From Candidatus Accumulibacter sp. ACC003 (GTDB lineage: Bacteria; Pseudomonadota; Gammaproteobacteria; Burkholderiales; Rhodocyclaceae): 64,000 nucleotides of DNA. The notes under the pieces were generated by a model. That model ran no database searches, had not been told where the DNA came from, and saw only the letters and a program-made list of their open reading frames with translations. The stretch lies in assembly GCF_907163085.1 (NCBI RefSeq), contig NZ_CAJQTX010000008.1, positions 1 to 64,000 of the forward strand, read 5' to 3'. The position numbers were made by a program, and so were the translations under genes. Below, piece after piece: positions 17,333-42,996 of the stretch; within the stretch, counting starts at the first letter, position 1, and each line of letters starts with the position of its first letter.

Positions 17333-17381
17333 GTAAGTATTCGGCCAACCCGTAGCGCGCCAGCGCCATTGCCGAGGCGGG

Positions 17382-18239: not shown

Positions 18240-19936
18240 GAGCTATCGATGGGACGGCTCTGATCGACCGGGATGCCACGCATCTGAGCCAGTCGATCGG
18301 TCGCCATCGCCCAGGGCAGAAAGGCACTCAAGTCCGTCGGCGGCAGGTTGCCGTTGGCGGCGCAGGCCTCCAGATACGCCGTCAGCCAGGTGCGCGGGTT
18401 GATTCCCCACAAGCGCAGCGTCAGCAGCAAGCTGAACATCGTCGCGGCGAGTGCGCCGGACCAGAGACTGCCCGACCCATAGAAGTTCTTGCGTGCGACC
18501 ACCGGCGTGCGCTGTGCGCGCTCGGCGGCATTATTGTCCATCGCCACCTCGGGGCGGTCGACAAAGACGGTCAGGCCGGACCAATGTTTGCGCATGCTTC
18601 GCAGCACCTTGCTCGCCGGCATTTTGAGCGCCGGGTTCGCCAGTTCGCTTTCCCGTTGACTGGCCATTTGCGTGATCGCCTGCCGCAAGGCGCGGTCGCG
18701 TTCGGCCCACTGTACTGGGTCGCTACGGACTTCCAGGCGCCGTCCATTCAAGTGGTAGAGCTGAGCGATCTGCTCGACCCAGGCCAGTGCCCAGTCCGCG
18801 AGCTCCGGATGGGCGTTGGCCAGTTCCAGGAAATCACGCCGCTGATGTGCCCAGCAGAAAGCCAGAATGAAGTGGTCAAGGACTCGCGCGAGCTTCTTGT
18901 AGGCCGAATAGCGATCACAGATGATGACTCCTCCGGCGCTACCGGAGAGCTCCCGGATCGGCACCGCCGCCGAGCGGCTCGGGTCGAGCACGAAGTGGAT
19001 GACCGATGGGCCGTGGAACACCCAGAAATACCAGCGATGTCCGACCTTCCCTTCGGTCTCGGCAAAGACCCGCCAGCGGGTCTCGTCTGCGTGCCACTGT
19101 TTCTCGCTGCGTAGTTGGCCAAGCAGTGCTTCTTCAAGCGGCTCGAACAGCGGTGCCAAGGCACGCAGTCCGCCGGCCACCGTTCCTGCCGAGAGCGTCA
19201 GTCCGTGGTCGGACAAGTCTCGCAGAAGCCGATGCGTCGGCTGGCCGTACAAGAACTTCGACAGCAGCAGGTGCACCCAGATCGACACGCCGTACTTTCC
19301 ACGCGGGATCAATCGTGCCGGCGGTGGCGCGGTCAGAATACCCCGCGCGCCCGAACACTGACAGGTCCGCCGGTAGCGCCGCCGGCAGATCTTCCGGCGG
19401 TAGGCCTTGACCTCGATCTCGAGGACTTCACTGTCTTCCGTGCCGGGAAAGTCGACGTAGCCCAGACCACAGTCCGGGCAATGCGGGCAGTCGATGTCGA
19501 TGACCTCGATCTGCGTCGGCAAGTGACTTTCCGGGTTCCGCCCGTGACCCGCTGCTCCCGGTTGCTGACCTCGAGCTCGCGACGATTTTTGGTCCGCCGC
19601 CGGGTTCTTCTCGGCTCCCGAAGAGCGTTCTGACTTGCGACCAAACAGGCGTTTTTGCAGATCGCGGATCTTGCCCTTGGCCTGCTCCAGTTCGCTGCGC
19701 AAGGCCGCCTCGCGCGCCGCCGCTTGCGCCATTTCCACCCGATGAGCTGCCTCCGATTGCGCCAACCGAACCAGCGCTTGTCGATGTTGGCTCCGCCAGA
19801 AGCTGGCCTCCCAACGGAGCTTGATTTCCTGCTCCTTGGTTAGCGTCACCAACACCTCGGCGAACGGCGCCACTTGGCGGTGACTTGCCGCCGATCCTCC
19901 GCCAATGATGTCCGCACCCGTGTCCATGCGCCGCAT
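18236..19936 (-). CDS. tnpC: IS66-family transposase TnpC, copy 1
   Basis: A 566-residue protein with an N-terminal coiled coil (about residues 35-90, LRWEASFWRSQHRQALVRLA onward). A zinc-finger region follows (CPHCPDCGLGYVDF ... CRRRYRRTCQC), then the DDE_Tnp_IS66 core: HADETRWRVF holds the first Asp, ICDRYSAYKKLA the second, and DNNAAERAQRTPVVARKNF the Glu region. It is intact and identical to the copy at 34764-36464, which points to recent transposition. Confidence 0.93.
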   Translation of the reverse strand: MRRMDTGADIIGGGSAASHRQVAPFAEVLVTLTKEQEIKLRWEASFWRSQHRQALVRLAQSEAAHRVEMAQAAAREAALRSELEQAKGKIRDLQKRLFGRKSERSSGAEKNPAADQKSSRARGQQPGAAGHGRNPESHLPTQIEVIDIDCPHCPDCGLGYVDFPGTEDSEVLEIEVKAYRRKICRRRYRRTCQCSGARGILTAPPPARLIPRGKYGVSIWVHLLLSKFLYGQPTHRLLRDLSDHGLTLSAGTVAGGLRALAPLFEPLEEALLGQLRSEKQWHADETRWRVFAETEGKVGHRWYFWVFHGPSVIHFVLDPSRSAAVPIRELSGSAGGVIICDRYSAYKKLARVLDHFILAFCWAHQRRDFLELANAHPELADWALAWVEQIAQLYHLNGRRLEVRSDPVQWAERDRALRQAITQMASQRESELANPALKMPASKVLRSMRKHWSGLTVFVDRPEVAMDNNAAERAQRTPVVARKNFYGSGSLWSGALAATMFSLLLTLRLWGINPRTWLTAYLEACAANGNLPPTDLSAFLPWAMATDRLAQMRGIPVDQSRPIDSS

Positions 19937-20048
19937 GGTGCCGGATTTCCGCTGCTGTGTCCAGTCCAGATTTCCGGTCTACCCGCCAATCGCTGACTGA
20001 ACCACGCCGACCAAAAAAGCGGGGGCTACGGGTTCACCGAATACTTAC

Positions 20049-26090: not shown

Positions 26091-26126
26091 TCTGCACAAG
26101 GGAAGGTGGGTGCGCTGCACGCTTAC

Positions 26127-29369: not shown

Positions 29370-30004
29370 GTGTCTAATTGCATTATTAACCGGTAGTAAC
29401 TATCATGCTTCTCCATTGCTTCGTGGTGGAGGAGATGTGGTGGGACGTGTGGCGGTGGCGCTGTCTTGCACAGCGGAGGTGAAGGAGGAATTGGAGCGTA
29501 TGTCACGGAGTCGCAGTGGCGAGGTTCGCTTGGCCGAGCGAGCGAGAATCGTGCTGGGTTGTTTGGAGGGTCTGCGAAACGACGAGGTTGCCCGCGCAGT
29601 TGGCGTACGTGCGAACACGGTGGGGCTGTGGCGTCGGCGCTTTGCCGAGCATGGTTTGTCGGGCTTGCGTGATGCTGCGCGGCCGGGCAAGCCGGCGAAG
29701 TACGGGCAGGATCTGCGTGACCGCATTCTGGCGCAACTCGAACGGACACCGCCGGAAGGTATGGCAAGTTGGGATGGTGGTTCGCTGGCGAAGGCGCTGG
29801 AAGTATCGGACGATGCCGTGTGGCGCGTGTTGCGTCGGGAGGGCATCCAGCTGCAGCGGCATCGCTCCTGGTGCGTGAGCACGGACCCAGAGTTCGCCGC
29901 CAAAGCAGCGGATGTCATCGGGTTGTACCTTAACCCACCTGAAAACGCGCTGGTCCTGAGCGTCGACGAGAAACCCTCGATCCAGGCTCTGGAGCGTCGG
30001 CGCG
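29370..30004 (+). pseudogene. Truncated second copy of IS630 with transposase fragment
   Basis: The left end GTGTCTAATTGCAT starts at 29370 after a TA. The transposase frame from 29416 is nearly identical to the copy at 26127-27074 (HTH region, SVDEKPSIQALERR) but breaks off after about 195 codons at 30004, where unrelated sequence begins. The second and third catalytic residues are missing. Its orientation is opposite to the first copy. Confidence 0.88.
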
Positions 30005-30019
30005 TGTTACGTCCGGCCG

Positions 30020-30051
30020 TAATCCAGACTCCTTGGCCCAAGCTTTTCGAG
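30020..30051. repeat. Short motif shared with 3533-3562
   Basis: About 30 bases, including CTTGGCCCAAGCTTTTCGAG, nearly identical to a stretch at 3533-3562. Probably the remains of the same element end at two sites; the parent element is not identified. Confidence 0.45.
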
Positions 30052-30211
30052 GTTGAAACGATGGCCGAGTCCCTCGCTGCAAGCGGAAGAGAGATCCCGC
30101 CTTGACGCTCTCAGGAATTGACCCACTTTTGCTCACGAAACCGGACCCGCCTAGTCGTCATGGCTGTGCGCACGAAAATGCCGCGCACACAGTCATTCCC
30201 GAGCGTACTCG

Positions 30212-30284
30212 CCTCTACACGGCGTCAAGGGTACGCTGCGCCGGGCTGCAAAAACCGCAGCCCGCCCTTGACCCCGCTCCGAGG
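30212..30284 (-). repeat. Structured dyad repeat, copy 2
   Basis: TCAAGGG (30225-30231) pairs with CCCTTGA (30265-30271), and the inner CGGGCTGC (30242-30249) pairs with GCAGCCCG (30257-30264). The reverse complement closely matches the repeat at 4055-4125, including flanks. Confidence 0.6.
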
Positions 30285-30297
30285 CGAAAACCTGGGT

Positions 30298-30359
30298 GTT
30301 GGCGCGCGCCAACGGTGGGTCAATTTCCGTGAGCGAAAAAGGGTCAGTTTTCGTGAGCG
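30298..30359 (+). repeat. Palindrome and two direct end repeats of DDE/ATPase element 2
   Basis: A 16-bp palindrome GTTGGCGCGCGCCAAC (30298-30313) is followed by two direct copies of a 19-bp motif, GGGTCAATTTCCGTGAGCG at 30317 and GGGTCAGTTTTCGTGAGCG at 30341. Related motifs occur near 11650 and 30115. Repeated end motifs are typical transposase-binding sites of Tn7/Tn5053-type elements, so this probably marks the end of element 2. Confidence 0.5.
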
Positions 30360-30392
30360 TTGAGATCCCGGCGGCAGCGTGGGATGAAGGCC

Positions 30393-30593
30393 CTACCGAG
30401 GCGGCAGCGGTGGCGTCCGCCAAGGGGCTTCGGGATCGTACAGATTAATCTGCCGCTGGTGATAGCGGCGTAGCTGCACGAAGTAGGGGCTTTCGCATGC
30501 GGCGGCGAGCTGATTAAGGAATTCACTGAGCGCTGCCGCGCTTTCATCGGAGAGCCCATCGGGGAACAGCGGGAGAGCCGGATGGCGCTTCAT
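30393..30593 (-). CDS. Small protein of DDE/ATPase element 2
   Basis: A 66-residue protein (starts MKRHPALPLFPDGLS, ends LYDPEAPWRTPPLPPR) overlapping the ATPase stop by ATGA, so it is translationally coupled to it. The middle is a helical stretch (AAALSEFLNQLAAACESPYF). No family name is known to me, but its tight coupling shows it is part of the transposition module. Confidence 0.65.
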   Translation of the reverse strand: MKRHPALPLFPDGLSDESAAALSEFLNQLAAACESPYFVQLRRYHQRQINLYDPEAPWRTPPLPPR

Positions 30594-31384
30594 CGCAATT
30601 CCTCGATCGCCAACTGCAACAGATCGTCCGGCAAATGATTCAGGCCACGCGGCACCGCCAGGCGCATCGCCGTGCGCAGAATTCGCCCGGCATGCCGCGG
30701 CAAGCCCTTGCTCGCCTGGCGCAAGATCTCCAGGCCTGAATCGCTGAGCAGCGTACTGGTACAACCGGCACTCTTCAGGCTGTGCTGGATCAGCTGCGCG
30801 AAGCGCTCGCGTTCGAGCACCGGCTTGAGCTGCACGCGCACCTGAATCCGCCCCGCCAGCGCCGCGTACGGCGCCCGCTCCAGCGTTTGCGCCAGTGTCG
30901 GATGGCCGATCAACCAGACCGCCATCACATCGCGCGTATCGAAGGCGAAGTTGAGGAAGGCCGGCAAATCCCGAAAGAACTCCGGCGGCAGATTCTGCGC
31001 CTCATCGATGATCCACACCGGCATCAGCTGACGGCTATCGACCAACTGCAGAATCCGCTCCTTCAGATCGCGCCACAGCTGCGCCCGCCGATACCCCGGC
31101 TCGACACCCAGCGCCCGTGCCAGACCGCGATAGATATCCAGCCGACCAAAGTCGGTCTCCGCCTGATAGATCACCTGATAACGATGCGGATTCAGGCCAC
31201 GGGTCAATTGGCGCAAGGCCGCCGTCTTGCCCACCCCGGGTTCGCCGGTGATCAGGCCGACCCCGGGCGAGTGCAACAACCAGGCAAAGCGCTCGGCCAA
31301 CTGTCCCAGCGTACCGTCATCCCACAGCTCGGCCGCTTGCTTGCCCAGCGGCGGATGCCGCAAACCAAAGTGTTGAAGGTCCAC
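30590..31384 (-). CDS. ExeA/TniB-like AAA+ ATPase of element 2
   Basis: A 264-residue ATPase with the N-terminal HFGLRHPPLGK typical of ExeA-like proteins, a Walker A motif ITGEPGVGKTAALRQ and a Walker B motif LMPVWIIDEAQNLP, plus a helical C-terminal lid. It begins with GTG one base after the transposase stop and is co-expressed with it. As in Tn5053-type systems it probably acts as the target-selection or helper ATPase. Confidence 0.85.
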   Translation of the reverse strand: MDLQHFGLRHPPLGKQAAELWDDGTLGQLAERFAWLLHSPGVGLITGEPGVGKTAALRQLTRGLNPHRYQVIYQAETDFGRLDIYRGLARALGVEPGYRRAQLWRDLKERILQLVDSRQLMPVWIIDEAQNLPPEFFRDLPAFLNFAFDTRDVMAVWLIGHPTLAQTLERAPYAALAGRIQVRVQLKPVLERERFAQLIQHSLKSAGCTSTLLSDSGLEILRQASKGLPRHAGRILRTAMRLAVPRGLNHLPDDLLQLAIEELR

Positions 31385-31385
31385 C

Positions 31386-31776
31386 TCACTCTCCTTCGGG
31401 GTCGTAGTACTGCTGATAGATCTGCTCGATCAGATTCGGGCCGCTCGTCCCTTTCTGGGGTTGGCTAGCGTCCGCCGGGTCAGGCGAGCGTCGTTGGCGC
31501 GTGGCATTGGCCAGCGCATCGAGTGGCGTCGCCGCACCGATCGATTCCCCTTGCTCGTCCTCGACGCCGATCACCGTCTCGGTATGCGGATCGACCACCA
31601 GAGACACCGTTTTACCCGACAGTTCAAAGGGCACCTCGAAGCGTTGTCCCTGATACGATACCGTGCCATCTTTGCGAACCAGTCGCGTGACGCGATGCTG
31701 GAACAGGGCATCGAGGCTTGCCGCCAACGGCCCCAACGGACGAATCCTGGACAGGTCCTGCTGGTAACGCGCCAAC
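31386..31776 (-). pseudogene. DDE transposase of element 2, C-terminal part
   Basis: Resumes after IS21-type element 2 with ARYQQDLSRIRPLGPLAASL and continues through a Mu-type C-terminal barrel (RLVRKDGTVSYQGQRFEVP). The N-terminal and catalytic part is at 40797-41739. Removing the IS21 element and one GTTGG duplication restores the frame (GMTPL-ARYQQD). Confidence 0.85.
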
Positions 31777-32019
31777 TGTGCGCGGCGGCGTGAATTTCGG
31801 TGGAAATGGGCGGTTTGAAATTCGTGCCTGTAAAGTGGCCGAGAGAGCGACGATTGGCGGCTCAATCGGGTCGTTCGAGCTATAGATCGTGGTCGTGATG
31901 AGGAGATGTTTCGCCCTGGTGGATCTGGCCGCCGGGTTCGAAACGCAACGGGCTAACGGACGCGTGCAATCGCCCGTCGACAGAAATCTGCGACGGGCGG
32001 TAGCCAGACTGGCGGCGAA

Positions 32020-32277
32020 CTACCGCTTGTTACGCGGTAACGCGAAGTACTGATCGAAGACCTCGTCGCTCATCGCCCGCGTGGTGATCCGATCGGCGTC
32101 GAGGATGAGCTTTTCCAGGAAGGCCCGTCTCGTCACGCTGGCGTGGCGAGCCAAGCGAGCCAGAGCGAGGGCCGTCGCGGTCGAGACCCATACCTGCAAA
32201 CGGCGTTCGCCGTTTTCGCCGGCGCAGGGTCGCTTGGCACGATAGGCTCGCTGCCTTTCTGCGGAAGTCGTCGCCAT
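32020..32277 (-). CDS. Small RHH-like protein downstream of istB
   Basis: About 85 residues starting MATTSAERQRAYRAKRP, with a beta-strand then helix pattern (RRLQVWVSTATALALARLARHASVTRRAFLEKLI) reminiscent of ribbon-helix-helix repressors. The ATG at 32277 is preferred over one at 32319, because the latter would include a GTTAC-N3-GTAAC motif as coding sequence. A matching motif also overlaps the stop. It lies between istB and the element end on the same strand and may be a self-regulated repressor of the element; that role is inferred. Confidence 0.55.
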   Translation of the reverse strand: MATTSAERQRAYRAKRPCAGENGERRLQVWVSTATALALARLARHASVTRRAFLEKLILDADRITTRAMSDEVFDQYFALPRNKR

Positions 32278-32289
32278 GAGCGCTCGTCC

Positions 32290-32302
32290 GTTACCGCGTA
32301 AC
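32290..32302. promoter_or_regulatory. Candidate operator GTTAC-N3-GTAAC
   Basis: GTTACCGCGTAAC lies 13 bases upstream of the ATG at 32277; its complement, GTTACGCGGTAAC, recurs at 32029-32041 over the end of the same gene. Dyads of this size suit dimeric RHH proteins. Confidence 0.4.
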
Positions 32303-32364
32303 GCCGACCGGATTGGCACCGGCGAACGACAGGTGCGCGCAGATCGGCCGGCAAATGGTGCCAG

Positions 32365-33129
32365 TCATGGCTCGATCTGGTCCTTCATGCGATAGCTCTT
32401 GCCCTCGATGATGACGGTTTCGGCATGGTGGAGCAGGCGGTCGAGGAGCGCTGAGGTCAGCGTGCTGTCGTGGTTGAAGATTTCCGACCAATGTTTGTAG
32501 GCGAGATTGGTCGTGATGACCAAGGCGCCGCGCTCATAGCGTTCGCTGATCACCTGGAAGAGCAGATCGGCGCCATGCTTGTCGATGGGCAGATAGCCGA
32601 GCTCGTCGACGACCAGCAGTCGCGGCTGCAGATACTTGCGCAGCTCGCGCTTGAGGCCACCCTGCGCCTGCGCGGCAGAAAGCGAGTTGATGATCTCGAC
32701 CGCCGTGGTAAACAGCACCGGGTAGCCGTGCAGACAGGCGGTGTGGGCCAGCGCGATACTGAGATGGCTCTTGCCCAGGCCGACATTGGCCATGAAGATC
32801 ACATTGCCCTTGTCCTCGATGAAACGCAGGCGAAAGAGATTCTGGATCTGCGGCCGGTTGATCTTCGTCGGCCAACTCCACTGGAACTGATCGAGCGTCT
32901 TGAGCACCGGCAATCGAGCCAGCCCGACGCGTCGCTGGATGCTGCGATCTTCACGGGCATGCGCCTCCCCTTCGATCAGGCGCGCCAGATACTCGACGTG
33001 CGACCACTGCTCGGCGCCCGCTTGCTGCGCCAGGGATTCAAAGTGCTCGCCCAGATGCGACAGTTTCAGGCTCGCCAGTTGGACGCGTAAGGCCTCGCTT
33101 GCCGCGGTGCCGGAAGCTTCAGTGCGCAT
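32365..33129 (-). CDS. istB: IS21-family helper ATPase IstB, element 2
   Basis: A 254-residue IstB with an N-terminal helical domain (LASLKLSHLGEHFESLAQQA), Walker A in MANVGLGKSHLSIALAHTA, Walker B in RLLVVDELGYLPID, and the sensor segment ALVITTNLAYKHWSEIF. The ATG at 33129 is chosen because GAGGGG sits seven bases upstream; an ATG at 33135 is also in frame. It overlaps the end of istA. It is intact. Confidence 0.9.
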   Translation of the reverse strand: MRTEASGTAASEALRVQLASLKLSHLGEHFESLAQQAGAEQWSHVEYLARLIEGEAHAREDRSIQRRVGLARLPVLKTLDQFQWSWPTKINRPQIQNLFRLRFIEDKGNVIFMANVGLGKSHLSIALAHTACLHGYPVLFTTAVEIINSLSAAQAQGGLKRELRKYLQPRLLVVDELGYLPIDKHGADLLFQVISERYERGALVITTNLAYKHWSEIFNHDSTLTSALLDRLLHHAETVIIEGKSYRMKDQIEP

Positions 33130-34036
33130 GGCCATGCCCCTCATAAAGGGAGAGATCGGGTGCGGCGATCTCGATTTCCAGGAGGTCCTGGCGGCGGGTG
33201 AGATGGAGCGCACCGGCCGCCGGGATTTCGCGGGCCCGCATCTCCAGGATGTTGGCGACGTACTCACTACTGTAGGCGGCAAAGGCAATGCCATCCTGGA
33301 TCGCCCGGTCGACGGCGTCGGCGCCATAGATCTCGCTCAAGGCGACGATCTTGCGCAGGTGATGGCGCGAGTTCACGCGGCGTTGCTCGATGCCCTCCAG
33401 ATAGGCCGATGCGTGCCGCGAGAGACTCAGGAACTGCACCAGCAAGCGCTGCTCACGGGCATTTCGCCGCTGCGCGAGCAGCTCCTTCGGATGCTCGGGG
33501 TCCTCGATATCCTGGCGGCGATCGTAGCTGCGGACATGGCGGGCGACGAGCTTGTTCTGGTGGTAAATGCACACCCGGTCCGGGTACGCCTTCAGCGTCA
33601 CCCGCTGACTCGCCAACTCGGCGGGGACCGAATAGTGGTTGCCTTCGAGCGCCACACGGAACTGCTTGGAAGCGCGCTGACTCTGGATGCGAGCGATGTC
33701 GTAGGGCATCGGATTGAGTGACTGCAGCTTCGCTTGCTCGTCCTTGAACAGGTCGACGGGTCGCTGGTGCGTTTCCCCATGGATGCGAACATTGGCGATG
33801 CTCGCCAGCCACAGCTCGGCGGCCGGGTTCACCGCGCTGAAGTCGAGAAGCTCCAGACCGTTCAGGAAATTCTTTTTGACATAACCCACACCGTTTTCGA
33901 CGCGTCCTTTTTCGTGGCCTTGCCCGACGTTACACGCCGAGATCTCGAACCCCCAATGACGAGCGAAATCGACGTAGCGCGGATTGAACAGCGGCGCCTC
34001 ACCGACGACGCGGGCGAGCACCGCCGATTTCAAATT
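33119..34036 (-). pseudogene. istA: IS21-family transposase IstA, element 2, C-terminal part
   Basis: Continues istA after the inserted IS with NLKSAVLARVVGEAPLFNPR, then the catalytic Glu region GHEKGRVENGVGYVKKNFLNG and the C-terminal domain ending EGHGHAH. Joined with the upstream part (39142-39696) the frame is continuous (LMIDN-LKSAV). Only the insertion disrupts it. Confidence 0.9.
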
Positions 34037-34073
34037 CAGATTTCCTGATCTCGGAGGAAACCGGGTTGGCACT

Positions 34074-34651
34074 TCAGACAAGAGTGAAGGTCATTCTTGC
34101 CCCGGTTTCCGGATGCGGAAAATCTTGCAGGGTGAGTTCCTCGAGGAGCGCGGCGATAGCGCGATCATGAGCTGGGCTGGCCATCCGGTGAATTTTGATG
34201 GTCAGGGTGTTGGCTAGCGCGTTCGGTTCGATGTCAGCGGAAGAAACGAACAATTCGCGAATGAGCGCACGTGCGTCGTCCTCCTTCTTCAAGTGGCGGC
34301 GCAATAGCGCCACCATGGCGGTCTCGGCCCGGTAGGCGACCATTTTCACGGTATCGCAGAGCATCTTGTTCAGCGGCGGCAGTTGGGTCGGTCGCTCGGT
34401 CTCGGGCAGACTGTCGATCGTCACCTTTCGGGGGCTTGCCTTGCGCGCCGCGCAAAGTCGCTTGAGCTCCTCCTGAACGGCCTGCAGTGCTTCGACAGAC
34501 TCGGCGTTTTTCTGGATTTCGCCGCCGTCGTTCAAGGCCGTCCTGGCGATTGCGGCCTGCAGTTTTCTTTCGCTCTGGCGGGTTTGCCTGACGGCCTTGT
34601 CGAGTTCCCGCCAGCGGGGGTTGACGACCTGGTGAGTGCCGGGAAGAGAGT
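34074..34651 (-). pseudogene. Transposase of unclassified IS, C-terminal part
   Basis: Continues the transposase of 37376-39008 after the IS66-type copy: SLPGTHQVVNPRWRELDKAV, then a helical region and TVKMVAYRAETAMVALLRRH to a stop at 34074 just inside the IS end. The frame rejoins across the 8-bp duplication AAGAGAGT. Total length would be about 740 residues. Confidence 0.82.
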
Positions 34652-34763
34652 GTAAGTATTCGGTGAACCCGTAGCCCCCGCTTTTTTGGTCGGCGTGGTT
34701 CAGTCAGCGATTGGCGGGTAGACCGGAAATCTGGACTGGACACAGCAGCGGAAATCCGGCACC

Positions 34764-36464
34764 ATGCGGCGCATGGACACGGGTGCGGACATCATTGGCG
34801 GAGGATCGGCGGCAAGTCACCGCCAAGTGGCGCCGTTCGCCGAGGTGTTGGTGACGCTAACCAAGGAGCAGGAAATCAAGCTCCGTTGGGAGGCCAGCTT
34901 CTGGCGGAGCCAACATCGACAAGCGCTGGTTCGGTTGGCGCAATCGGAGGCAGCTCATCGGGTGGAAATGGCGCAAGCGGCGGCGCGCGAGGCGGCCTTG
35001 CGCAGCGAACTGGAGCAGGCCAAGGGCAAGATCCGCGATCTGCAAAAACGCCTGTTTGGTCGCAAGTCAGAACGCTCTTCGGGAGCCGAGAAGAACCCGG
35101 CGGCGGACCAAAAATCGTCGCGAGCTCGAGGTCAGCAACCGGGAGCAGCGGGTCACGGGCGGAACCCGGAAAGTCACTTGCCGACGCAGATCGAGGTCAT
35201 CGACATCGACTGCCCGCATTGCCCGGACTGTGGTCTGGGCTACGTCGACTTTCCCGGCACGGAAGACAGTGAAGTCCTCGAGATCGAGGTCAAGGCCTAC
35301 CGCCGGAAGATCTGCCGGCGGCGCTACCGGCGGACCTGTCAGTGTTCGGGCGCGCGGGGTATTCTGACCGCGCCACCGCCGGCACGATTGATCCCGCGTG
35401 GAAAGTACGGCGTGTCGATCTGGGTGCACCTGCTGCTGTCGAAGTTCTTGTACGGCCAGCCGACGCATCGGCTTCTGCGAGACTTGTCCGACCACGGACT
35501 GACGCTCTCGGCAGGAACGGTGGCCGGCGGACTGCGTGCCTTGGCACCGCTGTTCGAGCCGCTTGAAGAAGCACTGCTTGGCCAACTACGCAGCGAGAAA
35601 CAGTGGCACGCAGACGAGACCCGCTGGCGGGTCTTTGCCGAGACCGAAGGGAAGGTCGGACATCGCTGGTATTTCTGGGTGTTCCACGGCCCATCGGTCA
35701 TCCACTTCGTGCTCGACCCGAGCCGCTCGGCGGCGGTGCCGATCCGGGAGCTCTCCGGTAGCGCCGGAGGAGTCATCATCTGTGATCGCTATTCGGCCTA
35801 CAAGAAGCTCGCGCGAGTCCTTGACCACTTCATTCTGGCTTTCTGCTGGGCACATCAGCGGCGTGATTTCCTGGAACTGGCCAACGCCCATCCGGAGCTC
35901 GCGGACTGGGCACTGGCCTGGGTCGAGCAGATCGCTCAGCTCTACCACTTGAATGGACGGCGCCTGGAAGTCCGTAGCGACCCAGTACAGTGGGCCGAAC
36001 GCGACCGCGCCTTGCGGCAGGCGATCACGCAAATGGCCAGTCAACGGGAAAGCGAACTGGCGAACCCGGCGCTCAAAATGCCGGCGAGCAAGGTGCTGCG
36101 AAGCATGCGCAAACATTGGTCCGGCCTGACCGTCTTTGTCGACCGCCCCGAGGTGGCGATGGACAATAATGCCGCCGAGCGCGCACAGCGCACGCCGGTG
36201 GTCGCACGCAAGAACTTCTATGGGTCGGGCAGTCTCTGGTCCGGCGCACTCGCCGCGACGATGTTCAGCTTGCTGCTGACGCTGCGCTTGTGGGGAATCA
36301 ACCCGCGCACCTGGCTGACGGCGTATCTGGAGGCCTGCGCCGCCAACGGCAACCTGCCGCCGACGGACTTGAGTGCCTTTCTGCCCTGGGCGATGGCGAC
36401 CGATCGACTGGCTCAGATGCGTGGCATCCCGGTCGATCAGAGCCGTCCCATCGATAGCTCGTGA
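34764..36464 (+). CDS. tnpC: IS66-family transposase TnpC, copy 2
   Basis: A 566-residue transposase identical in sequence to the copy at 18236-19936, with HADETRWRVF, ICDRYSAYKKLA and DNNAAERAQRTP as DDE motifs. It begins about 110 bases inside the element. The identity of the two copies indicates very recent movement of this IS, and makes this copy a candidate for the active version together with the DUF4338 gene that overlaps its stop. Confidence 0.93.
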   Translation: MRRMDTGADIIGGGSAASHRQVAPFAEVLVTLTKEQEIKLRWEASFWRSQHRQALVRLAQSEAAHRVEMAQAAAREAALRSELEQAKGKIRDLQKRLFGRKSERSSGAEKNPAADQKSSRARGQQPGAAGHGRNPESHLPTQIEVIDIDCPHCPDCGLGYVDFPGTEDSEVLEIEVKAYRRKICRRRYRRTCQCSGARGILTAPPPARLIPRGKYGVSIWVHLLLSKFLYGQPTHRLLRDLSDHGLTLSAGTVAGGLRALAPLFEPLEEALLGQLRSEKQWHADETRWRVFAETEGKVGHRWYFWVFHGPSVIHFVLDPSRSAAVPIRELSGSAGGVIICDRYSAYKKLARVLDHFILAFCWAHQRRDFLELANAHPELADWALAWVEQIAQLYHLNGRRLEVRSDPVQWAERDRALRQAITQMASQRESELANPALKMPASKVLRSMRKHWSGLTVFVDRPEVAMDNNAAERAQRTPVVARKNFYGSGSLWSGALAATMFSLLLTLRLWGINPRTWLTAYLEACAANGNLPPTDLSAFLPWAMATDRLAQMRGIPVDQSRPIDSS

Positions 36465-37318
36465 AGCCTTATTGCGGGCGTCACTTTACCGACGACGAAC
36501 TGCAGGCCCTCTGCCGCCTGATCGAAGCCCATCCTGGCAGCAGCCGCGCGCAACTGTCGCGCCAGGTGTGTGAGCTCTTCGACTGGCGTAAGCCCAATGG
36601 CGAGCTGAAGGATATGACCTGCCGGGTGGCCATGCTGCGTATGCAGGCCGACGGCCTGCTCACCCTGCCGGCGGCACGACGGGCCGCTCCTCGCCAACCC
36701 GAGTATCTGCCTACTCACGCCACCGATCCACAACCGTTGCTCACTCAGCCGGTGCATGAACTGCCGCCGCTGCGTCTGCATCAGGTCGTCGGTTCGGCGA
36801 ACTCGCGTCTGTGGAACGAGTACATCGCCCGCTACCACTATCTCGGCCACACGCCCATGGCGGGCAGTCAGAGCCGCTACTTCGTCTTCGCCGGCGAGAC
36901 CCTGGTCGCCTTGCTCAGCTTCGGCGCCAGCGCCTGGAAACTCGCCGCGCGCGAGCAATTCATCGGTTGGCACGATGAGCAGCGACAAAGGAACCTGCAA
37001 CTGGTGGTGAACAATGCCCGCTTTCTGATCCTGCCCTGGATCCAGTGCAAGGGCCTGGCCTCCAAGATCCTCTCGCTTATGCAGCGGCAACTGCCCAAGG
37101 ACTGGCTGGCGCGCTACGGCTACCGCCCCGTACTGCTCGAAACCTTCGTCGAGACGCCCCGCCATCGCGGCACCTGCTACCAGGCCGCCAACTGGATCAA
37201 GGTCGGTCAAACCGCCGGGCGAGGCAAGAAATGCCCCACCAGCAAGTCCATCCTCCCGATCAAGGACATCTGGCTCTACCCCCTTCACAGAGCCTTCCGA
37301 TCAGTCCTCTGCCGCTAA
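36461..37318 (+). CDS. DUF4338 (DruA-like) protein in IS66-type element, copy 2
   Basis: A 285-residue protein identical to the one at 17382-18239, starting with GTG inside the tnpC stop (GTGA). Key segments are YHYLGHTPMAG, AAREQFIGW, NNARFLILPW and GTCYQAANWIKVGQTAGRGK. No other Druantia component is nearby. It ends about 50 bases before the IS terminus, so it clearly travels with the transposase. Confidence 0.85.
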   Translation: MKPYCGRHFTDDELQALCRLIEAHPGSSRAQLSRQVCELFDWRKPNGELKDMTCRVAMLRMQADGLLTLPAARRAAPRQPEYLPTHATDPQPLLTQPVHELPPLRLHQVVGSANSRLWNEYIARYHYLGHTPMAGSQSRYFVFAGETLVALLSFGASAWKLAAREQFIGWHDEQRQRNLQLVVNNARFLILPWIQCKGLASKILSLMQRQLPKDWLARYGYRPVLLETFVETPRHRGTCYQAANWIKVGQTAGRGKKCPTSKSILPIKDIWLYPLHRAFRSVLCR

Positions 37319-37375
37319 CCCGCCTCGGCAATGGCGCTGGCGCGCTACGGGTTGGCCGAATACTTACAAGAGAGT

Positions 37376-39008
37376 CGTCTCCGTACTCGATAAGTCCATC
37401 AATATCATAGTGTTCCATCATGTACGCGAAGTAGTTTTCCTGGCACCAACGGGCGAACATCCGCCCAGCGATGGTGGTGTTTCCGAGTTGCCGGGCGGTC
37501 GTGATCACGGCTGTTTGATGTCCCGTCTGGGTCAGCCGACGAACTTCGCTCACGGCCAGGCTGCTATCGCCTGTGCCGAGTCGGGTTTCGCGCATGGCGA
37601 GTTTCATCCCGGTGCTGCCGCCTGCCGGCAGATGGACTTCCTGTTCCTGAAACACCTCTTCGGACCAGAGGTCCTTGACGTTCTTGCGGTAGGTCAGTGC
37701 GCCGATGCGCTGTTTCCAGAGTCTGCCGAGGAGACTCTGGGTGGCCCCTTCCCGATCGAAGACCATGACAAACCGGTGCAGGGTCGGGTCGGCGTCCAGT
37801 TCGGCCGGCGTCGGCTGTCCCGGGACAATCTCCAGCAGTTGGGGGACGATGTCCTTGAGCAGGGTCTCGGCGAGTCCGTCATTGAGCGGCTGCGAAACCA
37901 CAAAGAACGGGCGACCCAGGGCATCGTTAACCCAGTAGTCGGTGGTGCCCCGCAGGCACAGGCGTTCGCGCGAGACGTAGCGCTTCGACAGCCTGGCCTG
38001 CTCGCCGTGATACACCCGAACATGACCATCGACATACAGGTAACCCGCTTCTTCTGGCTCACTTTCCATCCAGAGCTTCGCGAGATCCCGCATCCAGGCT
38101 GCCGGGTCACCCGTCTTGGCCAGCAGATGGACCTTTTCCCGCAGGGTGCGGACTTCCGGTACCCGGTCCAGGCCGATGACTTTGCCGAGTTCTCCGGGCG
38201 AGGTTTGTCGCAGATGTTCCGGCCGCTTGATTCGCCCCAGGGCCATGAAGCCGAGGACGAGAAGGATGTGCAAGGCGCTGTAGAATCCCCGGGGCAGCTT
38301 GAGATGGCGATCCAGGCCGGTCAGTAGCCCGTTCGCGCACAAGGCCGGCAAGCCGGCCAACAGCCCCCCCATCGCCACATCGTGGCTCGCTTCGAAGCGC
38401 GTCGTCGCACCGGTCGCCAATCCCAGCGCCGTTTGGATCCGCTCGTCGGCGCGCGTGCAGGCGGTGCCCATCCCCGCGGCGGCTTCCGCATCCGCCCGGC
38501 TGCGCTCACTCTTGGTGCTCGCCGCTTCCAACTCCCCTGCCTCTTGCGGCAAGGCGGCCAACTGCGGCACGCCCTGGCGCCGGATCGCCTTGCGCAGCGT
38601 CGACTCCTGGACGCCCACCTGCCGTGCCACTTCGGCAGGACGCTTTCCCTCGCTCAACAGCCGCGCGCATTCGGCACTCTTGTCCGGCGTCATGATCCGC
38701 GGCCGGCTCGCCGCCGCCGGTCGAAAGAAAGACGATGGCCCGGCTTTGCGGCTTTGTCCCACCCAGTTCATCAGCGTGCGGTGCGGGATGCACAGCGGTG
38801 GCCTTTCCAGTTCGACCGCCTTGACGTGCCCGTTCTCCATCAGGCTGGTCAGAGCGAACCTGCGGCCAGCGTCGTCTCCTACGGGGTGCGAGAAGTAATT
38901 GTCTCCCCCAACAAAGTAGATCGCTTGGCCATCCTTCTCCAGAATCGCCAACCCTTCTCCCACTTTCTGCGCACCATCCGGAAACCCTGGAAGCCACGAT
39001 TGCCTCAA
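37376..39008 (-). pseudogene. Transposase of unclassified IS, N-terminal and catalytic part
   Basis: Begins MRQSWLPGFPDGAQKVGEG, followed by a helix-turn-helix region (CARLLSEGKRPAEVARQVGV and STLRKAIRRQGV). The RNase-H-like core has YLYVDGHVRVYHG (probable first Asp), MVFDREGATQSLLGRLW (probable second Asp) and RMFARWCQENYFAYMMEHY (probable Glu region). The gene stops being readable at the IS66-type insertion and continues at 34651. It looks intact apart from that. The family is not recognised beyond DDE-type. Confidence 0.78.
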
Positions 39009-39141
39009 CGTCTGCTCCTCCTTGCACTCCTAGCGAAGCTTGGTTTATGCCATAAGAAAATCATGGCCGTCAAAATAAAGTGCCACGTGCAATTCCGGAA
39101 TTCTACCTACATTCCCGGCCGGGATCAGGAAATCTGAAATT

Positions 39142-39696
39142 GTCGATCATCAAGCGGGCTGGGCAACCCCGGAACGCCGTGAAGGCGTGCTCATGGGCGG
39201 CGAGGAAATGCTCCATGGTTTGCGAGACGGTGAACTCGACGTACATCAGGCGGCTGTAGCACAGCACCATGACGAAGAAGGACAGTCGCCGACGCGTCGA
39301 GCCGACCGCGATGCTGCCGTATTCGCCCCAGTCAACCTGGGCGCATTCCCCGGGGGCAAAGGAGAGCTTGAGAAAGGCGGGCCGACGCACCGGCCGGACC
39401 TTGCGTACATACGTCTTGACGATCGTGTAGCCGCCCGTAAAACCTTCCTCGCGCAGGCGCTGGAAGATCTGCTGCGCGCTGTACGGGTGGCTTTCCAGCA
39501 GGCGAACGATGCGCGCCTTGAAGGGGTCGAGGCGACTGCTGCGTGGTGGCGACTGGCGGGCATGAAACTGCGCGACGCCGACCCACTTCGCCACCGTGTC
39601 CGCATCCAGAGCGAGGGCGCGGGCGGTCTGCGCGATGGTCAGCTGCTGCCGATCGTGGTGATCCTTGATCTTGCAGTAGGTTTCGTAGTCGATCAT
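39142..39696 (-). pseudogene. istA: IS21-family transposase IstA, element 2, N-terminal part
   Basis: Starts MIDYETYCKIKDHHDRQQLT with an HTH (IAQTARALALDADTVAKWV). It continues into the catalytic core APGECAQVDWGEYGSI (first Asp) and ARLMIDN (second Asp), where the unclassified IS is inserted with an AAATT duplication. The start overlaps the stop of the 130-residue gene (ATGA). Confidence 0.9.
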
Positions 39697-40085
39697 GGCG
39701 TCCGTCCCAGAGCAGCGCGCAGCTGACCGATTCGGATGTCAATCTCGTCCGCTGCCAGTTCGTCCGCTTCGATGCGCCGGGCAGCATCTAGCGCCAGTAC
39801 CTGGTAGAGCGGGCGTTGATAGGCGATCAGGCCGACGTGGACGAGGTCGCCACGTGCCTGGCTGAGCCGGGCAAGGCCGATCGACAGGCGCCGGCCGAGT
39901 ACGGCATCCGAGTAGTAGCTGCGCCCCTGGGCGTCGGCGACGGTGACCAGAAACAGATAGAGTGCCGCCGCTGGGGGATCACAGCGATCGAGGTAAGGTT
40001 GCCGCACCAGGCGGTGGTCGACCCAGCTGAACTGGGCCGGGATCGTTCGCATCCGTTCCGGACAGAGCACCCGTTTGATGGTCAT
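39693..40085 (-). CDS. Accessory protein of IS21-type element 2
   Basis: 130 residues starting MTIKRVLCPERMRTIPAQFS at the ATG at 40085, which has GGGGAGG upstream. The region ALYLFLVTVADAQGRSYYSDAVLGRRL and LSQARGDLVHVGLIAYQRPLYQVLAL resembles a winged-helix fold as in replication-initiator-like or HTH proteins. It is coupled to istA by ATGA and overlaps the zinc-ribbon gene by 107 bases. It takes the position that a ParB-like gene has in element 1. The function is unknown. Confidence 0.65.
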   Translation of the reverse strand: MTIKRVLCPERMRTIPAQFSWVDHRLVRQPYLDRCDPPAAALYLFLVTVADAQGRSYYSDAVLGRRLSIGLARLSQARGDLVHVGLIAYQRPLYQVLALDAARRIEADELAADEIDIRIGQLRAALGRTP

Positions 40086-40575
40086 CGCCGATCCTCCCCG
40101 CCAAGATGTCATGCCCCAGTTGTAGCAGCTGGCGGGTGCTCCTGGCGATGTCATCCTGTAACGCACTGCCCGTGAATTGTGCGATAAAGCCAATCAAAAC
40201 AGCGGGTTGGTCGCGCCAGACATCTTGTAACGCCGTTTCTGCCTTATTCTGGAAATCTTCAGCGATTTCAAGCGCTTGGACCGGGCAGACCTCTTGTAAC
40301 GCAAGCGTTGGGGGCGACTCCGCAGCGCTTGCCTTGGGTGGTCGTCGCCAGTAGCCCGGGTGCTCAGCCCGCCAAGCCTGCACCCGCGCGACATTCTCTG
40401 GTCCGCGGAAGTAGTCCTGGTTCTCCGGTTTGGCGAGCCAGGCGCGACGACTCGCCGCCCGGCTTGCCTTCCGACAGTCCACTTTGGCGCAGTACTTCTG
40501 GCGGCCCGCGTTGCGCGCATCCGCCTGGAAGATCTCTCCGCAAAACAAACAGTTGTGCCGTCCCTGGTGCGCCAT
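39979..40575 (-). CDS. Zinc-ribbon protein, first gene of IS21-type element 2
   Basis: 198 residues; the ATG at 40575 follows GGAGG. The N-terminus has CLFCGEIF ... YCAKVDCRKASR, a C-x2-C and C-x4-C zinc ribbon like that at 10905-11336, followed by a basic stretch (RRAWLAKPENQDYFRGPENV, HPGYWRRP). The last 35 residues overlap the next gene. The shared presence of this gene at the 5' end of two different IS21-type elements suggests a conserved accessory function. Confidence 0.68.
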   Translation of the reverse strand: MAHQGRHNCLFCGEIFQADARNAGRQKYCAKVDCRKASRAASRRAWLAKPENQDYFRGPENVARVQAWRAEHPGYWRRPPKASAAESPPTLALQEVCPVQALEIAEDFQNKAETALQDVWRDQPAVLIGFIAQFTGSALQDDIARSTRQLLQLGHDILAGRIGDDHQTGALSGTDANDPGPVQLGRPPPGAATLPRSL

Positions 40576-40796
40576 GGCTCGCCCTCCTTGCGCCGCATAA
40601 TGCAACGCCATGGCATGCTACGAGGCCCCACGCGCACGCTGACGGAAAGGAGGAAAAGCGAAGAACGAAAAAGAGCGAAGAGCGAGGAAGAAGAGCCAGC
40701 AAACCCTTCAGAGGAAAGCCGTCGAAGAAGATCGACGAAGAAAATACACGACTTTCAAACCGCCAGAATTAACGGACTTTCAGAACGCCGCTGACA

Positions 40797-41739
40797 CCAA
40801 CGGCGTCATGCCGGCGAGACCGGCGTGCGGGCTGCGGTGATAGACCTGTTCAAGCCACGCCCAGAGGCGGGCATTGAGATCGTCCAGGCTGGCGATATGG
40901 CGCTCATCGAGTTCGCTGAGAAACTGATCGCGGCAGCGGCGGTGCCAGCGCTCCAACTTCCCTTTGCCCTCGGGCGCGTACGGCCGGCAGTGAATCAGAT
41001 GGATGCCCAGCCGGGCGCAGATCCCTTGCAGCGTCTCGGCGCGGTAGGCGGCGCCGTTATCGACCACCAGCTTGAGCGGAATGCCGCGCTTGAGCACCGC
41101 CTGCTTGAGCACGCCTTCGATATCCAGGGCGGTTTCTCCGGGGCAGAAGGCGCTGTGCGTGAGCAGCCGGGAGGCGTCGTCGAAGAGCGATACGAGATAG
41201 CTCTTGGCGAGTTTGCCGTCGATCGGCACGCGTGGGCCGTGCATCACGTCGCCGTACCAGATCGCCCCCGCTGTCGCGGCGACGAAGCTGCGTTTCTCCT
41301 CGGGCAGGCTGGCCGAGCCGGTGATCCGTGACAGGCCGTGCTGCTGCAGCAGACGGTGAATGGTCGACCGGGCCAGGCGGCCACGGGCGACGGTGCCGGT
41401 GGCTTCGAGCAATTGTCGAATCTGGCACAGCGAGCGCCGCGGGTTGTCGCGCTTGGCGGCGAGAATGGCCGCCTGGGTGGCGGCCGGGAGCTTCGATTGG
41501 CCGCGGTCGGCGCGCGGCTTGGGCGTCAGGCCATCAAGCTGGTGGAGGCGCCAGGCGTAGTACCACGCCTGAATCGTCTTCTCGCTCAGATAGCGCCGAC
41601 GGCTGCCGGGGATGGCGTACTCGCGGCTGGCCAGCTCCCGGAGGAGCTGTTGCAGTTCGCCACGTTCCAGCCGCTCGCGGCTGATCAGGGGACCGAGAAC
41701 GGACAGGCGAAACAGGGCTTTCGGATCAATCGGGTTCAT
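40797..41739 (-). pseudogene. DDE transposase of element 2, N-terminal and catalytic part
   Basis: Starts MNPIDPKALFRLSVLGPL at 41739. It has an N-terminal HTH (YLSEKTIQAWYYAWRLHQLDGL), a second HTH-like region, then an rve integrase core with GAIWYGDVMHGPR (first Asp), KLVVDNGAAYRAE (second Asp) and APEGKGKLERWHRRCRDQFL (Glu). It breaks off after HAGLAGMTPL at the IS21 insertion. The C-terminal domain is at 31386-31776. Confidence 0.88.
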
Positions 41740-41777
41740 AACCACTCCTGGTGATAAATCGGAGCGGTGATCAAACC

Positions 41778-41840
41778 AGAACGGCCGTTCTAATGACAGG
41801 AGCAAACTGTGTGGGGTCCCCGCCCGGGCGGGGACCTCAC
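41778..41840. repeat. Two palindromes between zinc-protein and transposase genes
   Basis: AGAACGGCCGTTCT (41778-41791, perfect) and a 30-bp GC-rich dyad centred on CCCGGG at 41811-41840 (one mismatch). The second could form a strong stem but has no T-run, so it is not a clear terminator. The pair lies between the first and second gene of element 2 and may be regulatory. Confidence 0.45.
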
Positions 41841-41868
41841 CGTCTGCCGCTCGTTCGGAATCAGTTCA

Positions 41869-42402
41869 TCACGGGACGCTGATCTGCCGATCAAGCCAGG
41901 TCATGGCCTGTGCCAGGCCGATCGATTCGAACACCCGGCGCCAGAAAGCGCTGCCGTCGACCGTCCGCCCGAGGTCGGCAAAGCGAGCACGCAGGTGAAA
42001 CTCGAACAGCAGGCGGCGCTCCTGGAGCCAGGCCCACCAGCGACCGGCGGTGCGCCGCTCGGGCGCCGCGCCGGGTGCGCCGGGGCGATCGGGCGCGCCG
42101 CTCAGCCGCTGTGCCAGGACCGCTTGCTGCACTGACCAGTCATACCAGCGGCGCGGCGCGATGCACGCCGGCAGACGCGAACACGTCCGCCGACATCCAG
42201 AGCAACAGTAGCGGCAGATCGGCACCGGATTGAGTGAATCCTGCCCGGCTCGCCGGTCGGCCTTGCGCTCGTAGTGCCCGTGCTGCCAGAGAATCTTCAG
42301 GCCGCAATGCGGGCAGCACGGCGGTCGATACGCTTCGGGGGTTTGCTTGATGGCCTCAAGATGCTGCTCGATCGTCTCGATGCCGGCTACAATTCGCTGC
42401 AT
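41869..42402 (-). CDS. Cysteine-rich zinc-binding protein of element 2
   Basis: A 177-residue protein with PPCCPHCGLKILWQHGHYE and PICRYCCSGCRRTCSRLP, two cysteine pairs that form a DUF6431-like zinc-binding region. A helical C-terminus follows (FEFHLRARFADLGRTVDG). It is the first gene of the four-gene element, as the protein at 21467-22087 is in element 1. The function is unknown. Confidence 0.68.
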   Translation of the reverse strand: MQRIVAGIETIEQHLEAIKQTPEAYRPPCCPHCGLKILWQHGHYERKADRRAGQDSLNPVPICRYCCSGCRRTCSRLPACIAPRRWYDWSVQQAVLAQRLSGAPDRPGAPGAAPERRTAGRWWAWLQERRLLFEFHLRARFADLGRTVDGSAFWRRVFESIGLAQAMTWLDRQISVP

Positions 42403-42549
42403 GGGCTGGGCGCTTTGCTGTGTGGTTTGTCTTGATAACTTCCCACGATAGCAGAGTTGTCCCGGCCCTTCTTTCGTTCACTTCGTCCCAACATCCTTCA
42501 GGCAGGCCGCCTTCTTTCGCTCTGACCGTTCTCGGGATGAAGCGCGCCG

Positions 42550-42996
42550 TCAGACCCGGGAGAGCGGCGGACGTAGCACTTTGCTCGCCTCGTCGACCGC
42601 GTGCTGCGCTTCCGGAGGCATGTAGTTCTCGTCGTGCTTGGCCAACACCTCGTTGGCCATGAAGTGGCCGTTGGCGTCGATCTGGCCGTGGGCGACGACG
42701 CCCTTTCCTTCGCGGAACATGTCGGGGAGGATGCCCGTGTAAGCCGTCTGGATATCCTTGGCGGTGTCGGTGACGACCAAGTTCACCGTCAGGTTGTCGC
42801 GCTTGACCGAGCCTTCCTTGACCAGCCCGCCGATGCGGAAAGCACGGTCCCTGGGTGCCTCACCGGCGGCGACCTGGGTCGGCGTAAAGAAGAAGACGAG
42901 GTTGCTGTTCATGGCATTGAGGACCAGCGCGGTGGCGACGGCGAGGGTCGCCAGTCCGCCACCGATCAAGGCCAGCCGCTTCTGTCGGGGCGTCAT
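42550..42996 (-). CDS. ccmE: Cytochrome c maturation protein CcmE (heme chaperone)
   Basis: 148 residues: a short cytoplasmic tail, one membrane helix (about residues 9-28), and a periplasmic OB-fold domain. The heme-attaching histidine is His121 in [10 protein letters not shown], with the conserved Tyr125. CcmE receives heme from CcmC and passes it to apocytochrome c. It overlaps the htpX stop by ATGA and stands apart from other ccm genes, which is unusual. The C-terminal extension is short. Confidence 0.92.

Follow-up and report, generated by a model that had tools for sequence, protein, structure and literature searches.

Nested insertion sequences (ISs) are common. The ends of IS66-family elements begin with GTAA, and the tnpA- and tnpB-type accessory genes are absent in the ISBst12 subgroup. 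The Mom gene of phage Mu is annotated as a DNA adenine modification and antirestriction gene, and passages of two papers (PMC7824862; PMC6483171) present it as an antirestriction modification gene. The DUF4338 family has been called GCN5-like, with proteins among its possible targets (PMC10853773). Our literature searches found neither a link between DruA and Mom nor one between DruA and transposases, and no paper that brings together DNA modification, Mom and insertion sequences; a search on ISs in Accumulibacter returned nothing on topic, as judged by title. Here, we analyze a stack of mobile elements in a stretch of 64,000 nucleotides (the window) from Candidatus Accumulibacter sp. ACC003, the innermost of which pairs an IS66 transposase with a gene for a DruA-domain protein.

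The window contains a stack of five mobile elements

A preliminary description of the region, made from the letters alone, had proposed four mobile elements inserted one inside another. The pile is real, and the three inner insertions have the limits then assigned to them. The innermost, IS66-type element (34652..37367, plus strand; 2716 bp) has AAGAGAGT on either side, the IS that surrounds it (34037..39136, minus strand), then left unclassified and here recognized as a Transposase_29 (PF21804) element, is flanked by AAATT, and the IS21-type element (31777..40796, minus strand) by CCAAC; upon inspection of the flanks all three target duplications were exact. The count of four, on the other hand, missed a fifth insertion, of 262 bp, within the outermost element, and the DruA-domain gene at 36461-37318 inside the innermost element had also been overlooked.

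The outermost element had been placed at 30317-42402. The termini of nine other copies, which start with TGTTACGTCCG and end with CGGACGTAACA, set its limits instead at 30005..42578 (minus strand), where the window copy reads TGTTACGTCCG...CGGACGTAGCA. According to Pfam, it codes for a DUF6431 protein (41869..42402, minus strand; PF20020, E 2.1e-9), a DDE (rve) transposase (31386..41805, minus strand; split by the IS21-type element into 40780-41805 and 31386-31776) and an AAA_22 ATPase (30590..31384, minus strand; PF13401, E 1.9e-24), together with a small ORF. Other copies are flanked by short repeats, about 5 bp long; no matching repeat flanks the window copy (GCGCG versus CTTTG), and thus at least one flank has been rearranged. 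The 262-bp insertion (30100..30361, no strand assigned) is bordered by the 9-bp repeat GAGATCCCG; no large ORF was noted in it, and near-identical copies are present in L147 and L151.

As had been claimed, the split genes rejoin in frame when the insertions are excised in silico, and intact copies of every host element were found in the same genome. With its flanks joined by script, the outer element measures 3278 bp, equal to a natural copy (intact, for example, at L149), and its transposase regains the 464-residue frame of that copy. The IS21-type element becomes 3915 bp long and identical to the uninterrupted copy on C9 (L147). It has istB (32365-33327; PF01695, 252.7 bits), an istA gene split into 39103-39696 and 33119-34036, terminal TGT and the short duplication CCAAC, features of IS21 elements; one istA piece scored 101 bits against the NF033546 cut-off of 160 because the gene is split. 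The middle IS is restored to 2376 bp; it has 8 mismatches relative to a natural copy, whose open frame of 743 codons it shares. In natural copies (L165 is an intact one) PF21804 matches above the cut-off in one piece, and full-length copies of this type account for 24 of the 36 Transposase_29 matches in the genome. A fifth split Transposase_29 gene was observed at L163 on C2.

The parsimonious order of events would be insertion of the outer element, then of the IS21-type element, the Transposase_29 IS and the IS66-type IS. The preliminary description took this for a clean relative dating; the order holds as the parsimonious one, but strict dating is too strong a claim, since full-length Transposase_29 copies could in principle have moved the already interrupted middle IS in trans.

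The innermost element is a two-gene IS66-type insertion sequence

The 2716 bp of the innermost element, with ends GTAAGTATTCGG, hold only two large genes. The first (34764..36464, plus strand) codes for an IS66 DDE transposase of 566 residues, well above the cut-offs for both PF03050 (201 bits, cut-off 23.1; E 3.6e-59) and NF033517 (302 bits, cut-off 180). The second (36461..37318, plus strand) codes for a DruA-domain (DUF4338) protein with a predicted winged helix of the DNA-binding type and Mom-like GNAT fold, and its GTG start overlaps the transposase stop by 4 bp (GTGA). No tnpA- or tnpB-type accessory genes were seen in the element; we take its nearest group within IS66 to be the ISBst12-like, single-transposase form. 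An identical copy lies elsewhere in the window (17333..20048, minus strand), and the genome has 28 full copies, with 8-bp duplications that are exact in 26, carry one mismatch in another and are absent in the last, in line with the IS66 family. The element looks like a self-sufficient insertion sequence.

It had further been suggested that insertion occurred into transposase genes rather than elsewhere. As a general preference this was not borne out: repeats contain the empty sites of 7 of the 28 IS66-DruA copies and 209 of 2000 sites drawn at random (p 0.02, one-sided, against a library that had in part been picked with these elements in mind), which suggests a general bias into transposases at most weakly. 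No target consensus emerged over 26 sites, in which the highest column reached 0.27 bits. One hot spot stands out, an 8-bp site in the middle IS that IS66-DruA occupies in three distinct copies; these copies have flanking repeats of their own, and IS66-DruA occurs at the site in two orientations.

The DruA domain resembles Mom of phage Mu

The window protein matches PF14236 ('Druantia DruA', DUF4338) with an E value of 7.1e-41. Sequence searches at E values up to 1 found no solved relatives of DruA. When an AF2 model (pLDDT 89.6) was used in a structure search, Mom was the top PDB match (E 1.2e-4). RimI followed (E 2.4e-4) and had the higher target TM-score (0.70 versus 0.56), so that structure alone does not point uniquely to Mom. 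Of 45 DruA proteins, 31 matched the Pfam Mom family (E 2.1e-5 at best), the only one of the 13 families listed for these 45 to be matched by more than one protein; the window protein itself scored 18.2 bits against the Mom cut-off of 27.1. The Mom profile retrieved DruA loci in three of the eight genomes positive for that profile. Alignment of DruA with six near-identical Mom proteins using hhalign, in which the Mom alignment is shallow, was weak, at a probability of 4% and P 0.01, with a weaker score for a control GNAT.

Among DruA sequences with a residue at the position concerned, a His is present in 97 of 97, a Ser in 93 of 94 and a Tyr in 91 of 92, and all three occur in the three Mom sequences aligned. 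The conserved Ser corresponds to the residue changed in PDB entry 8bv8, titled 'inactive mutant S124A'. The window protein combines the GNAT fold with this activity-linked serine and the conserved His and Tyr, and homology between the DruA domain and Mom of phage Mu is supported.

Possibly, the DruA protein is an ordinary GNAT that acylates proteins or small molecules and regulates, for instance, the transposase or a host factor. All 31 PDB matches with E ≤0.001 are acyltransferases by title, mostly acting on such substrates, and the GCN5-like label, with proteins among the possible targets (PMC10853773), is in agreement. This possibility seems improbable to us, as none of the 13 families listed is a general acetyltransferase family, Mom alone recurs there, and Ser, His and Tyr are common to DruA and Mom.

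The DruA domain is a recurrent partner of DDE transposases

The domain has 83 matches in the source genome, as compared to 0 to 5 in 27 other genomes of the genus, and the source genome has it in four or more types of element, whose DDE transposases differ. A DDE transposase is fused to the domain, or encoded on the same strand no more than 150 bp away, at 61 of the 80 named loci and at 23 of the 28 loci from the genus. Fusions to IS4-type and to ISAs1-type transposases occur, and one fusion protein, on C7, has 741 residues. A stop-start overlap, GTGA or ATGA, is present in the window and at nine of ten other loci inspected. On the DruA tree the DDE partners form clusters, and the partner family has switched at least four times. 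The distances among transposases and those among DruA proteins are correlated (r 0.855 over 39 rows; 0.829 over the 20 rows with a single gene order), and none of 2000 shuffles gave a correlation as high; of the two proteins, DruA has diverged less (mean identity 0.56 versus 0.41). On the other side, in a less biased sample of the phylum, only five of the 19 loci with a DruA-profile match adjoin one of the four transposase types, nine have room but no such transposase, and five lack room; four further loci without a profile match stand outside the 19. No transposase directly adjoins the DUF4338 gene of a Thiodictyon plasmid. The partnership of the DruA domain with DDE transposases is supported.

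The gene could still be a Mom-like antirestriction passenger, which would modify DNA and guard the element, or whatever carries it, against restriction, without a role in transposition itself. Homology to Mom speaks for this explanation, and Mom itself is such a gene by annotation and in the passages cited above. A closer partnership is indicated by the transposase fusions (IS4-type and ISAs1-type), by the overlap of stop and start and by the way in which DruA and transposase diverge together, and we regard a mere passenger of this kind as unlikely. Less likely still is an ordinary pile-up of ISs with the DruA gene as an inert passenger, even though the genome is rich in ISs (of a 400-kb random sample, 10.7% recurs within the 805 kb examined): over 10 comparisons, dN/dS is 0.06-0.32 for the DruA gene and 0.05-0.29 for the transposase, indicating purifying selection, and the catalytic-type residues are conserved and the partnership recurrent. 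Part of a Druantia-type defense system the gene is almost certainly not, in spite of the PF14236 match and of one weak match to the PADLOC DruA model (E 2.7e-4) among the two innermost-element proteins, since L188 and L187, which match that model at E 4.4e-80 and 7.4e-106, lack His, Ser and Tyr at the corresponding positions and the window gene lies within a 2716-bp IS with the transposase as sole companion; we rejected it as Druantia cargo on these grounds. One of these two PADLOC-model proteins adjoins a TniQ gene.

A proposed nucleobase-modifying enzyme working with the transposase

We infer, at about even chances, that the DruA-domain protein is a Mom-like nucleobase-modifying enzyme that works with the transposase. 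It would be made via the 4-bp stop-start overlap after the IS66 transposase, its GNAT domain would modify nucleobases in the manner of Mom, by transfer of a chemical group, and the protein would act on DNA jointly with the transposase. It may mark the element or the donor DNA, or shield transposition intermediates from host nucleases. More tentatively, and with the balance tilting against it, DUF4338 may be at root a Mom-type enzyme, recruited by at least four DDE kinds (IS66, IS4/Tn5-like, ISAs1 and one unclassified, by neighborhood or fusion) to take part in transposition itself and marking DNA during movement, with the DruA of anti-phage Druantia a derived form that lost the Mom-type residues.

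Should the activity be as proposed, some of the simplest mobile elements would carry their own DNA-marking enzyme, which would bear on the choice of ends, targets or strands by transposases and also on the means by which transposons escape restriction by the host. The proposal offers a chemical hypothesis for a family otherwise known only by a defense label, and cautions that annotated 'DruA' matches may be transposon genes. With its 83 domain matches, the source genome would be the natural place to seek a modified base.

Comparison with known systems

The IS21-type element shares istA and istB with IS21 insertion sequences but has additional small ORFs at 39693-40611. Full-length copies of the Transposase_29 IS are 2376 bp long, with 5-bp repeats in 15 of the 15 copies whose two ends are both covered by the sequence examined. 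The innermost element resembles the IS66 family in its transposase, above the NCBIfam cut-off, in its 8-bp duplications and in its ends, which begin with GTAA; it differs in lacking a tnpB-type gene and in having a Mom-like winged-helix/GNAT gene that overlaps the transposase stop. With Druantia type I DruA (PF14236; PADLOC DruA1), the window protein shares the Pfam family and the region of an RD-x-x-x-G/F motif, whereas the two PADLOC-model proteins compared are devoid of the Mom-type His, Ser and Tyr and DruB-DruE are absent within the innermost element. With phage Mu Mom (PF25680), the DruA domain shares the GNAT fold, the invariant H, S, F, G, Y, A, N and G positions, and residence in a transposing element; unlike Mom, it has an N-terminal winged helix and its own RDxxIGW motif, and is without the C-terminal part of Mom.

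Nested insertions and the limits of the outer element

The innermost of the nested elements, an IS66-type element (34652-37367), carries the target duplication AAGAGAGT on both sides and lies in a Transposase_29 (PF21804) element (the middle IS; 34037-39136, duplication AAATT), which in turn lies in an IS21-type element (31777-40796, duplication CCAAC). These three insertions and their duplications, proposed in the preliminary description, were borne out on inspection, as was the claim that in silico removal with one duplication kept restores open frames. The joined flanks of the IS21-type element form 3915 bp identical to a copy on contig C9, with an istA frame of 490 aa, and those of the middle IS form 2376 bp that differ from a natural copy at 8 positions and share its frame of 743 codons. 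The uninterrupted relatives sought were found for all three host elements elsewhere in the same genome (5.39 Mb in 13 contigs), and the joints coincide exactly with the duplications, the matches to the intact copies overlapping there by 5, 5 and 8 bp. Beside istA and istB, the IS21 element has additional small ORFs at 39693-40611. In itself, a nest of this kind is unremarkable in a genome rich in IS.

The limits initially assigned to the outer DDE/ATPase element (30317-42402) proved to be gene limits and not element ends. The ends of nine other copies (TGTTACGTCCG at the start, CGGACGTAACA at the end) place the window copy at 30005-42578. Other copies are bordered by short repeats, but this one has GCGCG on one side and CTTTG on the other, and we conclude that it is rearranged in the window. 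Identity to the other copies is 95-97% over the left part and about 98-99% over the right, as expected of a mosaic. Five of 12 copies, the window's included, are interrupted, and one more is truncated by the end of its contig. A 262-bp insertion (30100-30361) with a 9-bp repeat has near-identical copies at loci L147 (contig C9) and L151 (contig C1). The left end of the element cuts one of two similar DDE_3-type transposase genes (26067-27074 and 29416-30105), which bracket, in opposite orientation, a gene at 27553-29355.

Order of insertion and choice of target

The nest had been taken to give a clean relative dating. The order read from it remains the simplest, but it is not forced, because the 24 full-length copies of the middle-IS type in the genome might have moved an already broken copy in trans. 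The middle IS, 2376 bp long, has 5-bp repeats, mostly with TT at the end, in all 15 copies with both ends in the sequence compared (17 left ends were found). That insertion goes into transposase genes rather than elsewhere is only weakly backed overall: the empty sites of 7 of 28 full copies of the innermost element (IS66-DruA) fall within repeats, against 209 of 2000 random sites, a weak excess since the comparison sequence was partly picked for these elements. One target site is recurrent. The genome has five Transposase_29 genes that are split, four of them by IS66-DruA and three of these four at the same 8 bp, GTAGTTTT or the complementary sequence; the three host copies have different flanking repeats and carry the element in two orientations and two variants, and thus at least two of the insertions were independent. 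The reverse nesting, a Transposase_29 IS within an IS66-DruA copy, was seen once (L164).

The innermost element is a variant of IS66

IS66-DruA is a new variant of IS66, of 2716 bp, with two genes, one for an IS66 transposase (34764-36464) and one for a protein with the PF14236 (DUF4338) domain, 'Druantia protein DruA' (36461-37318). The start codon of the second overlaps the stop of the first (GTGA in the window), an arrangement found again, as GTGA or ATGA, in 9 of 10 other loci inspected, some from the same genome. Among 28 full copies, 26 have an exact 8-bp duplication, one has a duplication with one mismatch and one has none. Accumulibacter HK-STAS-PROT-102 has both genes, in two copies, within the same kind of ends and 8-bp repeats, and the nearest named relatives of the second gene are from Accumulibacter. 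IS66-DruA-like copies on an Arenicellales chromosome have related ends in common; matching flanking repeats were not found at the three copies inspected there. The variants at L042-L048 have a mosaic look, with identity to the window copy in L045 of 99.3% for the DruA protein against 92.3% for the transposase, which suggests recombination between copies.

The DruA domain beside DDE transposases

The genome holds 83 DruA-domain matches: about 32 with IS66, 25 fused to an ISAs1 transposase, 19 beside 'T4', an unclassified DDE-like gene adjoining the domain, 4 in IS4/Tn5-like fusions and 3 pieces, as sorted by match range and open-frame length with the type verified on examples only. Matches occur in 20 of 28 genomes of the genus (0 to 5 in genomes other than the window's) and in 16 of 299 of the phylum, surveys that scored part of the window genome's own candidates and hence give it a lower count than 83. 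We scanned with profiles of the four transposases and counted as a partner any that was fused to the domain or lay on its strand no more than 150 bp away. Of 80 named loci, 61 had one (13 lacked 300 bp of room, 6 had room but none); these loci were picked by similarity to the window gene and so do not represent the family fairly. The genus gave 23 of 28 loci. The phylum gave a fairer and lower figure, 5 of the 19 loci with a profile hit (9 had room but none, 5 lacked room; 4 further loci without a DruA-profile hit stand outside the 19). On one Candidatus Thiodictyon plasmid record the annotated ISAs1 transposase spans the DruA-domain match; on a second plasmid, no transposase directly adjoins the DUF4338 gene.

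A tree of 97 DruA rows requires at least four changes of partner family, and the partner labels are clustered far beyond shuffles, which argues for partnerships that are long-lived yet exchanged between transposase families. Distances between transposases follow those between DruA proteins (r 0.855 over 39 rows, 0.829 over 20 rows of one gene order), and 0 of 2000 shuffles reached the observed correlation. DruA is the more conserved (mean identity 0.56 vs 0.41). Over 10 comparisons, dN/dS was 0.06-0.32 in the DruA gene and 0.05-0.29 in the transposase gene. The two genes are co-encoded, move together and diverge together, a DDE transposase with a conserved Mom-like protein. In four copies (L155 twice, L158 and L159) the DruA-ISAs1 fusion is broken at the same point into frames of 358 and 250 codons (for example C4:168178-169251 and 170597-171670), suggesting a programmed frameshift.

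The DruA domain resembles Mom

An AF2 model of the DruA-domain protein (45 sequences; mean pLDDT 89.6, pTM 0.80) predicts three N-terminal helices, of winged-helix type by our own reading, followed by a GNAT-like alpha/beta domain. Foldseek returned 31 PDB matches at E <=0.001, all acyltransferases by title, led by phage Mu Mom (8bv8; E 1.2e-4, TM 0.42/0.56, 16% identity) and RimI (E 2.4e-4, TM 0.41/0.70); in a viral structure library, Mom of a Salmonella phage ranked fourth (5.7e-7). Taken alone, the modelled structure would only say GNAT, and nothing narrower. The sequence says more, and would narrow the domain toward Mom. In an all-Pfam scan, Mom (PF25680) was matched by 31 of the 45 DruA proteins, with a best E of 2.1e-5, and each of the 11 further families listed, DruA itself aside, by a single protein; the window protein matched Mom at E 0.002 (residues 119-251), under the Mom cut-off. 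Of the 299 genomes, 8 were positive with the Mom profile, and for 3 of them the site is a DruA-domain gene (E 1.4e-4, 2.9e-4 and 6.0e-4, under the curated cut-off). When 3 Mom and 13 DruA proteins are aligned, the columns without variation are Mom H48, S114, F137, G146, Y149, A151, N153 and G158, S114 being the residue exchanged in the crystallised 'inactive mutant S124A' (8bv8). Over the 97 DruA rows, His is retained in 97/97, Ser in 93/94 and Tyr in 91/92 of rows with a residue there. Weaker was the hhalign comparison of DruA with six near-identical Mom proteins, at a probability of 4% and P 0.01 (control GNAT, P 0.15). The proteins of L187 and L188 strongly match the PADLOC DruA model; they gave no Mom match, and the Mom-type His, Ser and Tyr are absent at their aligned positions. 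In L188 (G219:C1) the DruA gene directly adjoins a TniQ gene, a neighbourhood that suggests a Tn7-like element.

Possible role and known systems

That the two genes overlap so tightly and diverge in parallel, and that other families have the domain fused to the transposase, makes us favour a role of the DruA-domain protein in transposition over plain cargo. The protein may use its helices to bind DNA and may attach a small group to a base; it could mark the ends, the donor or the target, or else shield intermediates. In the parts of the literature covered, DUF4338 appears as a GCN5-like domain fused to DndF (PMC10853773), as DruA of Druantia (PMC7251935) and as an entry in a table (PMC6174562), and a link to Mom or transposases was not found in those parts of the three papers. 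Nor was such a link found in the extracts of open-access literature on DruA or Druantia with IS66, transposase or insertion sequence, PMC12458937 included, or among the matches listed, likewise extracts, for transposase with acetyltransferase and IS66. As far as these open-access searches show, the connection is apparently unreported. For Mom itself, the part of PMC7824862 covered describes momylation as well as families in which Mom is fused to a nuclease. The innermost element points to an overlooked link among transposases, Mom and DruA.
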